From Halalkalicoccus sp. CGA53 (GTDB taxonomy: Archaea; Halobacteriota; Halobacteria; Halobacteriales; Halalkalicoccaceae), in contig NZ_CP144125.1 in the NCBI RefSeq assembly GCF_036429475.1, positions 3,613,521-3,677,520 of the forward strand: a stretch of DNA of 64,000 bases, given 5' to 3'. The notes under the pieces are model-generated. The model was not told the origin of the DNA. It was given only the letters and a program-made list of their open reading frames with translations, and did not search any database. Below, piece after piece: positions 1,940 to 11,657 of the stretch (within the stretch, counting starts at the first letter, position 1; each line of letters starts with the position of its first letter). The translations under genes and the position numbers were made by a program.

Positions 1940-2956
1940 ATGTGGGTGCTCGTCTGGTACGCGGTCGTCGGCGCCGTCTGTACGGCGCTCATCTGGCGGG
2001 CCAGCGGGCTCCTCGAGGGATCGGCCGAACGCCTCGCGCTCCACTACGGGCTCCCCGCGATCGTCCAGGGGGCGGTGATCGTCGCCATCGGCTCCAGCAT
2101 GCCTGAACTGCTCACCGCGATCATCGCCCCGCTCGTCCACGACGAGTTCGAACTCGGCGTCGGCGTCATCGTCGGCTCCGCCATCTTCAACGTACTGGTC
2201 ATCCCGGCGGCCGCCGCGCTCGCGAGCGAGGGTGGGCTCTCCTCGGGCCGCGAGGTCGTCTACAAGGAGGCGCAGTTCTACATGCTCGCGGTCGCCGTCT
2301 TCCTGCTCATGTGCTCGTTCGCCGTGATCTACTACCCCGTCGACGGGGCGGGAACCCCTCTCGGCGGGACGATCACCCGCGAGCTCGCGCTCATCCCGGT
2401 CGCAACCTACGGGCTCTACGTCTTCATCCAGTACTCGGATACGATGGACCACGAGCCGGAGCCGCTGACCGAACGGATCGACGTCCGCAGGGAGTGGCTC
2501 CTGCTGCTCCTGAGCTTCGCCGTGATCGCGGTCGCGGTGGAGGGCCTCGTCCGGATGGCAATCGGGTTGGGAGAGATCTTCGACACCCCGAGCTTCATCT
2601 GGGGGCTCACCGTGATCGCCGCGGCGACGAGCCTCCCCGACGCGTTCGTCTCGATCGCCGCCGCGAAACGCGAACACGACGTCACCAGCATCGCGAACGT
2701 CTTCGGCTCGAACGTCTTCGACCTGCTGGTGGCGGTCCCCGCCGGCGTGCTCGTCGCGGGCGCGGCCGCCATCGACTTCTCACAGGCGATCCCCCTGATC
2801 GGCTTCCTCATGTTCGGCACGGTCGTCCTCTTCACCCTCCTGCGAACCGAGTTCGTCCTCGAACCGTGGGAGGCGTACGTCCTCCTGGGGCTCTACGCGG
2901 TCTTCGTCGTCTGGGTCCTCCTGGAGACCGTCGGGTTCACCGGCGTCATGCTCTAA
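1940..2956 (+). CDS. Sodium/calcium exchanger family (CaCA) membrane protein
   Basis: The product has about ten hydrophobic segments in two inverted repeats. Each repeat carries an alpha motif: GSSMPELLTA followed by GSAIFNV in the first half, and AAATSLPDAFVS followed by GSNVFDLLVA in the second. These acidic, small-residue motifs form the cation site of the CaCA superfamily, which exchanges Ca2+ or another cation for Na+, H+ or K+. I start at the ATG at 1940 (MWVLVWY). An upstream in-frame ATG at 1874 would add 22 polar residues and remove the usual immediate membrane entry. The ion specificity is not visible. Confidence 0.87.
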   Translation: MWVLVWYAVVGAVCTALIWRASGLLEGSAERLALHYGLPAIVQGAVIVAIGSSMPELLTAIIAPLVHDEFELGVGVIVGSAIFNVLVIPAAAALASEGGLSSGREVVYKEAQFYMLAVAVFLLMCSFAVIYYPVDGAGTPLGGTITRELALIPVATYGLYVFIQYSDTMDHEPEPLTERIDVRREWLLLLLSFAVIAVAVEGLVRMAIGLGEIFDTPSFIWGLTVIAAATSLPDAFVSIAAAKREHDVTSIANVFGSNVFDLLVAVPAGVLVAGAAAIDFSQAIPLIGFLMFGTVVLFTLLRTEFVLEPWEAYVLLGLYAVFVVWVLLETVGFTGVML

Positions 2957-9460: not shown

Positions 9461-9587
9461 TTAGCGTCACTCGTTTCGGCCGGGGTCGATCACCGGGGGA
9501 TCCACTGGTGAGGAGGCCCATCCGATCCCCGGGATACCGAACATGTTCGCGAGTCCGTACTCGGTTGAGGGGAGCGTACGGGCGGCC

Positions 9588-9992
9588 ATGAGCGAGAGCG
9601 TCGTCGAGACGGCCGCCCACGGTGACGAAACCGTCCGGACCATCGAGGTGGTCTGTACGGGACACGTTCGGGACGCGGTGGGGAAGGGTCGGTTCGAGTT
9701 CGCGTTCGAGGGCGAGACCCTCAGGGGGTTCCTCGCCGCGTTCTTCGAGGAGTACCCGATCGAGGAGCTGTTGATCGCCGAGACGGAGGCGGAATCGACG
9801 GCTCACGGCTGGGCGCCGGCACCCGAGACGCTCCCGGGCACCTGGCGGAAGAACCCCGAGGGCGAACAGACCCGGACCTACGCGCGGGTGCTGGTCAACG
9901 GCCGGTTCAACGAGAACAGGGAGGGCTTCGACACCGAACTCCGCGAGGGAGACCGGGTCGCGCTGGTCTACCCGTTCATGTTCTGTTGCTGA
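9588..9992 (+). CDS. MoaD/ThiS-type beta-grasp protein with C-terminal Cys-Cys
   Basis: From the ATG at 9588 the product has 134 residues. An upstream in-frame ATG at 9543 adds 15. The N-terminal IEVVCTGHVRDAVGKG and FEGETLRGFLAAFFEEYP segments and the C-terminal ARVLVNGRFN and LREGDRVALVYPFMFCC segments follow the beta-grasp pattern of MoaD, ThiS and archaeal SAMPs. About 35 extra residues (AHGWAPAPETLPGTWRKNP and around) sit in the middle. Family members normally end in Gly-Gly, the thiocarboxylate or conjugation site; this one ends in Cys-Cys at the aligned place. It lies divergently next to cruF. It is not expected to be a standard sulfur carrier, and its job is unknown. Confidence 0.7.
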   Translation: MSESVVETAAHGDETVRTIEVVCTGHVRDAVGKGRFEFAFEGETLRGFLAAFFEEYPIEELLIAETEAESTAHGWAPAPETLPGTWRKNPEGEQTRTYARVLVNGRFNENREGFDTELREGDRVALVYPFMFCC

Positions 9993-10238: not shown

Positions 10239-11312
10239 TCAATCGGGGAGGATTTTCGGTAGTTGAACTCGCAGGAACTGGATGGTGACGACCATGATGA
10301 ACGGGCCGAGGAATATACCATACCACCCAAAAACTGCCGGTCCCAGGAGATATGCGAACATGACGAGCCCCGTGTGAAAGAGACGTCCGGAGAGGAAGGG
10401 CCGGACGTAAGTTCGGATGACGTTGTCGAAGATGATCCCCATCACAACGTAGAACACTATCGGGAACCAGATATATGTCACGTTTGTTTGGTATGCTACG
10501 AGAGTCAGGTAGAGAACAATCGCCCCATACAGCAGATTTCGACCGAGGAGTGGAACCACTGAGATCAGTCCAGTGGCAAAACCGAGAAGTATCGCGTGAG
10601 GGATCGCGAGACCTGGCGGAGCAACGAGATTCAACACGTTGTAGATGATTACGGCCACAATACTGATCACGATAATAGTGAGCGTATATCCGAAATAGAC
10701 CGAAGAGAGCCCCCGATCAACCGCTTTTAGATATTCGTACACGTTCGACTCCCTCGCTACAATGGTGGATCGGAACCAGGAAGCGATTCTTCGCTCGTCT
10801 CGAACCAGGAAAAACGCGAAGATGAATGTGATCAAGGCGTTGAACGCTTGCACAGTGAACGTCCCGACGAACCCGCTCACCAACGGAGCAAGCGTGGCGA
10901 GAGTCGGATCGCTCCGCAGGGCTTCTACGAACGCAGATAGTTCATCCTCGCTTGTGGGGAGAGTATCTATAGCAAGCCCTGGGAACAGCCTTTCGAACAG
11001 TCCTTCGACGTCCGTCGCCTCTATCGCTGCAAGCTCTGCGAGTAGTAAAACAACGAACACCCCCAGAACTGCGACGAATGGTAACATAATGAGACCGAGT
11101 GAAAGGAGAGCAGAGAGTCCCGGTGAAACACCCCGATGTCGAAGGCGTCTGGCAACTGGCCGGACGACGTAGTATAGGAAGATCCCCAACACAATCCACC
11201 CGAGGTAGGTGTGTAACGCCACAACGAGGACGAGAACGAGAACGAGCGCGAAAAGCCACCAGCCAGTCGTCCCAGCCAGCCCCTCGCCGTTCGATGAAAC
11301 GCTCCATCTCAT
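10239..11312 (-). CDS. AI-2E family (PerM-type) membrane transporter
   Basis: This 357-residue membrane protein has the layout of the AI-2E/PerM permease family: paired helices at the N-terminus (residues 15-60), a helix around residue 70-90, a soluble segment, and a C-terminal bundle with LLGFATGLISVVPLLGR and YLLGPAVFGWYGIFLGP motifs. Substrates of archaeal members are unknown; relatives export small signals, ions or auxin-like molecules. The ATG at 11312 is preferred over a GTG at 11321. Base composition here is clearly lower in GC than in the carotenoid genes on either side, suggesting later insertion between cruF and lyeJ. Confidence 0.85.
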   Translation of the reverse strand: MRWSVSSNGEGLAGTTGWWLFALVLVLVLVVALHTYLGWIVLGIFLYYVVRPVARRLRHRGVSPGLSALLSLGLIMLPFVAVLGVFVVLLLAELAAIEATDVEGLFERLFPGLAIDTLPTSEDELSAFVEALRSDPTLATLAPLVSGFVGTFTVQAFNALITFIFAFFLVRDERRIASWFRSTIVARESNVYEYLKAVDRGLSSVYFGYTLTIIVISIVAVIIYNVLNLVAPPGLAIPHAILLGFATGLISVVPLLGRNLLYGAIVLYLTLVAYQTNVTYIWFPIVFYVVMGIIFDNVIRTYVRPFLSGRLFHTGLVMFAYLLGPAVFGWYGIFLGPFIMVVTIQFLRVQLPKILPD

Positions 11313-11657
11313 GAGATTCACATATTTCGGTTTGAGCCCACATAAGCAGTATCAATCAACCCTCGGGCAATCGATCAGCGACGGCTCAGAAGCGGACAGC
11401 GGTCCTCAACTGAGGTTATTCGAGCGTATTAGAAACAGAGTGGTGTTCGATCAGGGTATATTTAGGGTGTGGCTTCTATCCCGTTCTGTAAGCATCTGAT
11501 CTCGTCGATTATCTTATTTCAGATAAGAGATAATCCGCACCCCCGTGCTGGATACATCTCTATGTCTTGCAGGCCAACCTCAGCGTGTCAGATTAATATA
11601 GAGTGGAATGGTCGTGGGAACCAGAGGTCCCAGTAGTAACCGTTCCGGTCCTCGACA
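11313..11657. other. AT-rich intergenic stretch between permease and lyeJ
   Basis: This 345-base gap has no convincing coding frame. It contains several AT-rich patches, including GATTATCTTATTTCAGATAAGAGATAATC around 11508-11535, part of which is an inverted repeat (CTTATTTCAGATAAG). It holds the promoter of the leftward permease gene and the 3' end of lyeJ. I see no RNA gene in it. Confidence 0.5.

Follow-up and report, generated by a model that had tools for sequence, protein, structure and literature searches.

The CC-tailed gene and its product

The stretch of DNA analysed (the window) comprises 64,000 nucleotides of contig NZ_CP144125.1 of Halalkalicoccus sp. CGA53 and carries a small gene for a MoaD/SAMP-like protein ending in two cysteines, referred to here as the CC-tailed gene. 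The gene order in the window is cruF, the CC-tailed gene, an AI-2E-family transporter (10239-11321), lyeJ and crtD, with cruF and the CC-tailed gene divergently transcribed. The initial annotation placed the gene between the carotenoid genes cruF and lyeJ-crtD, which is accurate on the cruF side, while on the other side the transporter intervenes before lyeJ. The features of the locus are as follows.

9538..9549, no strand assigned: CGAACATGTTCG palindrome, a promoter element of NarO type (anaerobic/denitrification), located 38 bp ahead of the ATG (PMC5746218, PMC11218638)
9588..9992, + strand: CC-tailed MoaD/SAMP-like gene, 134 aa plus stop (stop within the coordinates)
9780..9878, + strand: family-specific insertion (about residues 65-97), holding some of the most invariant residues of the family (W75, G84, P90 and G92)
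9969..9989, + strand: C-terminal tail YPFMFCC (residues 128-134), with P129 and F130 invariant and the penultimate Cys133 in 51/52 sequences

An in-frame ATG at 9543 (9543-9545) forms the centre of the palindrome CGAACATGTTCG; a start there would give 149 aa, 15 codons too early, and automatic annotation can pick it. An in-frame Asn-Met/Val/Thr-Phe translation likewise lies upstream in many relatives of the gene.

Against Pfam ThiS, the product of the open reading frame scores 27.1 bits, over a gathering threshold of 22.5 bits, with residues 26-129 aligned to 67 profile positions, which leaves an insertion of about 37 residues. Matches to moaD_arch (TIGR01687; 2e-9, 37.8 vs 49.5 bits) and SAMP1 (NF041918; 2e-5, 24.9 vs 60 bits) fall under their curated cut-offs, and a profile of the family searched against PDB sequences returned MoaD matches only, all of them weak. 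Using 52 window and locus sequences as input, AlphaFold2 predicted a core with pLDDT of about 88-95, a low-confidence insertion and a disordered tail. Foldseek comparison of the model with the PDB retrieved SAMP1 (2l52, 1.8e-6), HVO_2177, MoaD, CysO and Urm1, and the protein as modelled shows a beta-grasp MoaD/SAMP fold. The fold proposed initially is thus borne out by the ThiS score together with the matches to SAMP1, MoaD and Urm1, and the extra insertion in the barrel, first put at 35 residues, is real and itself highly conserved.

The C-termini of 75 distinct homologues confirm that Gly-Gly has been lost, as none ends in GG; the endings are CC in 64, CV in four, CL in four and CF in one, and the two remaining exceptions are a degenerate tandem copy ending in AP (L052) and a member that loses the tail (L102). 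A frameshift or sequencing error at the C-terminus is ruled out, because the same ending is conserved across families. Among 52 diverse sequences, the final position holds C in 42, V in four, L in four, F in one and P in one, while the penultimate cysteine is kept in all except the L052 copy. That copy (G116, L052 1044-1394) is a divergent second family member in tandem, 45% identical to the query, without the Cys tail and ending LFAP. Elsewhere in the protein, C23 is kept in 44/51 and H26 in 51/52 diverse sequences.

Since the penultimate cysteine is near-invariant and the last residue variable, conservation does not extend to a Cys-Cys metal pair; judging from the alignment, the conserved unit is the single penultimate cysteine. 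Nor is any second thiol invariant, because the last cysteine is replaced in 10/52 and C23 in 7/51 members. The initial annotation had suggested that the cysteine pair could bind metal or form a persulfide. The pair as functional unit is not supported, with the final cysteine replaced in about a fifth of the diverse sequences and the penultimate one kept. The persulfide is retained as a possible chemistry. A conserved Cys-Cys metal site, alone or with C23/H26, is weakened, as neither C134 nor C23 is invariant.

Promoter element and neighbourhoods of relatives

In a profile search, the CC-tailed family was found in 155/242 Halobacteria genomes, representing 44/74 genera, and one scan gave 49 loci from Halobacteria genomes. 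Annotated plasmid copies carry the names "MoaD/ThiS family protein" or "pterin cluster protein".

The motif CGAA-N4-TTCG is common to haloarchaeal denitrification and ahbD promoters (PMC5746218), and its Haloferax mediterranei form is CGAAYATDKTYG (PMC11218638). After dereplication of the upstream regions of the CC-tailed family, 76 of 83 contain it, with the consensus CGAAC(A/G)TGTTCG, compared with 8.5% of random 400-bp windows of the loci and with 0-1 occurrences for each of six control palindromes in the same 83 regions. Of the seven regions without it, three contain the perfect site with one mismatch, and a fourth contains a near copy. In the window, the palindrome sits between two divergent genes, cruF and the CC-tailed gene; in several other loci (L081, L001) the upstream gene is co-oriented or far off, and in L001 the palindrome lies by the CC-tailed gene alone, so that the element goes with the CC-tailed gene itself and not solely with a gene divergent from it. 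The exact 12-mer CGAACATGTTCG occurs three times in the 4.04-Mb host genome, namely in the window, upstream of an NXR/Nar-type alpha-beta operon (133 bp from the alpha subunit gene) and upstream of a ferredoxin-NrfD operon (at 87 bp), and no copy was found at the three GG-type MoaD loci of this genome. The looser CGAA-N4-TTCG has 226 occurrences in the host genome and is therefore weak evidence by itself for any single gene, and it is conservation across homologues that carries the argument. The CC-tailed gene very probably belongs to an anaerobic regulon, with the element presumably active on it. The RNA-Seq study on the NarO/DmsR-type regulon does not name the gene in its main text. Elsewhere in the window (2694-2720), two tandem CGAACGTCTTCG palindromes lie 15 bp apart.

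The neighbourhoods of relatives are varied in composition, and in 76/107 loci a partner lies within 3 kb, comprising qNorB, NirK, AhbC/AhbD, CGCGG, a DMSO-type-II Mo operon, AOR plus GG-MoaD, or HTH_10. NorB, NirK, CGCGG or the AhbD family is found within 10 kb of 65/149 genes, in four taxonomic families and several arrangements, where a rough estimate of chance linkage is <1% per partner. For example, qNorB is divergent from the CC-tailed gene at about 330 bp in Halorubrum, and NirK lies on the same strand as a homologue at about 300 bp. Further neighbours are CGCGG (TIGR03995), the AhbD-type radical SAM protein TIGR04053, the AhbC-like TIGR04347 and Htur_1727. The neighbours include two Cu proteins, NirK and halocyanin, as well as enzymes that contain heme or genes for its synthesis. 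In Halobaculum, the CC-tailed gene is directly upstream of a DMSO-type-II molybdoenzyme operon with a TorD chaperone, while aldehyde:ferredoxin oxidoreductase (AOR) is present in six loci from several haloarchaeal families, five of them with a GG-type MoaD gene, which lies 13-37 bp from the CC-tailed gene. Apart from GG-type MoaD, no moa genes were seen beside the CC-tailed gene. The original remark that the gene is far from molybdenum genes is thus true of the window and untrue of the family. HTH_10 regulators, the class to which NarO and DmsR belong, occur in 22/107 loci at a distance of no more than 3 kb. Anaerobic respiration is common to these settings, and a Mo/W-pterin enzyme recurs among them. 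By context, TIGR04053 is taken to be the family of the H. volcanii AhbD (HVO_2144), which is required for anaerobic growth and encoded close to nirK and norB (PMC5746218).

Several of the neighbours merit comment in their own right. TIGR04347 is named "pseudo-SAM" (L081 6697-7914; L121 7705-8919), yet the L081 protein retains a CxxxCxxC motif (CNLACAHC), has its next-best scores with the NirJ1 and AhbC models, and may be the haloarchaeal AhbC. CGCGG (TIGR03995, L081 13684-14010) and Htur_1727 (TIGR04031, L081 6392-6700) are annotated as RiPP precursors, yet they are found alongside anaerobic heme and denitrification genes and may be accessory proteins. In Natrialbaceae (L083 6552-7916, L086 4901-6229), the CC-tailed gene is divergent from a family of COX1-like membrane proteins that score under the Pfam gathering threshold and may have a NO- or heme-related function.

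Across genomes, the CC-tailed gene co-occurs with NXR-type NarG (odds ratio 10.6), NorB (5.5, p 2e-9), CGCGG (5.1), the AhbD family (4.1) and NirK (3.1), with p-values that are inflated because the genomes are related. There are 46 marker-positive genomes without the CC-tailed gene, 31 genomes with it that lack NorB and NirK, the host genome included, and 17 of the 155 that lack every marker tested. NorB, NirK, CGCGG and the AhbD family were not found in the host genome, which does carry the Nar-type operon; its NXR-type nitrate reductase/nitrite oxidoreductase alpha subunit of 1200 aa (L112 10000-13602, host genome C2:3182502-3186101) matches PDB 7b04 at 1.3e-231. A single obligatory partner among NorB, NirK, CGCGG and AhbD is ruled out, none being universal. 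NarG was likewise rejected as a general partner, since the type-II DMSO/Nar family gives p 0.065 and the NXR-type alpha, at E<=1e-150, is present in 18/242 Halobacteria genomes, 17 of them with the CC-tailed gene.

Possible functions of the CC-tailed protein

From its position in the window, the protein could be an accessory of the carotenoid pathway, as cruF and lyeJ-crtD flank the gene both there and in its closest relative (L001), which repeats the arrangement minus the transporter, and carotenoid genes lie 3-6 kb off, beyond NorB, in six Halorubrum loci. However, L001 is the only one of 107 loci besides the window with a carotenoid gene within 3 kb. The carotenoid link is rejected as local only, and this role is highly improbable. 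Instead, the neighbourhoods and the promoter motif point to anaerobic nitrogen-oxide/molybdenum respiration, not pigment synthesis. Taken as a whole, the earlier interpretation keeps its fold, Gly-Gly loss, Cys ending and insertion, with the persulfide as a possibility, and loses the Cys-Cys unit and the carotenoid connection.

MoaD-type proteins bind by docking, with their tail inserted into the active site of the partner, as in MoaD/MoaE. The best reading of the CC-tailed protein, to which we give not quite an even chance, is an anaerobically induced accessory protein that presents a cysteine and serves Mo/W or nitrogen-oxide respiratory enzymes. Anaerobic nitrate/nitrogen-oxide-type respiration would switch the gene on via the CGAA-N4-TTCG (NarO/DmsR-type) element, the MoaD/SAMP fold would dock on a partner, as MoaD does on MoaE, and the flexible tail would offer the penultimate cysteine, as a thiol or persulfide, replacing the E1-made thiocarboxylate. 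The likely service would be to deliver sulfur or thiol while Mo/W-pterin and associated respiratory enzymes are assembled or maintained. Cys-carrier chemistry as such, with a thiol or persulfide and no need for E1 activation, is the simplest reading of the tail and, argued by analogy, a tentative suggestion, and we know of no precedent for a Cys persulfide on a MoaD-type tail. The more specific proposal of a ubiquitin/MoaD-fold sulfur carrier without E1 activation, passing a persulfide on the penultimate cysteine to Mo/W-pterin or other anaerobic respiratory enzymes, is rather doubtful.

Other functions could be speculated from the same observations. The protein may be a metal chaperone whose terminal Cys-Cys binds Cu(I), Fe or heme for NirK, NosZ, NorB or halocyanin, given the Cu proteins and heme-related genes among its neighbours and the CC end of most members. 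Yet the replacements of the last cysteine and of C23 and a host genome without NirK and NorB make this unlikely. The conservation of one reactive cysteine and the nearby HTH_10 regulators would also suit a redox or NO sensor, in which C133 is oxidised, nitrosated or disulfide-linked by NO/oxygen and the MoaD fold reports to a partner, e.g., an adjacent HTH_10 regulator. This is improbable as well, as the gene also occurs where NO-handling enzymes were not found, and a docking role would account no less well for the conserved insertion and the MoaD-type tail. Finally, a MoaD/SAMP1 fold without Gly-Gly, the closely spaced GG-type MoaD gene in AOR loci and the promoter element in common with the Nar-type operon could indicate a MoaD mimic, which would bind MoaE or the E1 enzyme unproductively and thereby throttle or redirect molybdopterin synthase or SAMPylation in anaerobiosis. 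We give this little probability, since it leaves the retention of one cysteine unexplained and GG-type MoaD is the only moa gene seen beside the CC-tailed gene.

Comparison with known systems

Ubiquitin-like sulfur carriers characteristically end in Gly-Gly. The CC-tailed protein shares the beta-grasp fold of the MoaD/ThiS/SAMP carriers and lacks their E1-activated C-terminal Gly-Gly; its resemblance to SAMP1 and archaeal MoaD (NF041918, TIGR01687) extends to the C-terminal half of the domain, up to the tail, and it differs from both in its conserved insertion and in scoring below both cut-offs. That a large conserved branch has swapped Gly-Gly for one cysteine and stands behind an anaerobic promoter element suggests that the fold is put to another use here.

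The likeness of DsrC/TusE is offered only as a works-like comparison, since DsrC does not belong to the MoaD-type proteins. The CC-tailed family resembles it in the near-invariant penultimate cysteine on a tail that is disordered in the model, whereas the fold differs, the model matching MoaD-type proteins with no DsrC among the best 50 fold matches listed. In DsrC, a strictly conserved penultimate cysteine on a flexible C-terminus is persulfidated (PMC3397948).

At the level of regulation, the family has the same palindromic element as the NarO/DmsR-type regulon of Haloferax/Halobacterium (PMC5746218, PMC11218638), and nirK, norB, ahbD and HTH_10 regulators, the neighbours in that regulon, likewise lie beside the CC-tailed gene.

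The family is almost certainly arCOG00539, described by Makarova and Koonin in 2010 as a Halobacteria-specific beta-grasp family with a double-Cys C-terminus (PMC2948915). Our literature search found arCOG00539 named nowhere else, and the part of that paper drawn on here gives it no function. As far as that part describes arCOG00539, the two are alike in beta-grasp fold, occurrence in Halobacteria and double-Cys end, and what is new is the penultimate cysteine, the promoter palindrome and the anaerobic and Mo/W neighbourhoods. An orphan family of 2010 thereby gains a concrete physiological setting that is testable in Haloferax, where anaerobic genetics is established (PMC5746218).
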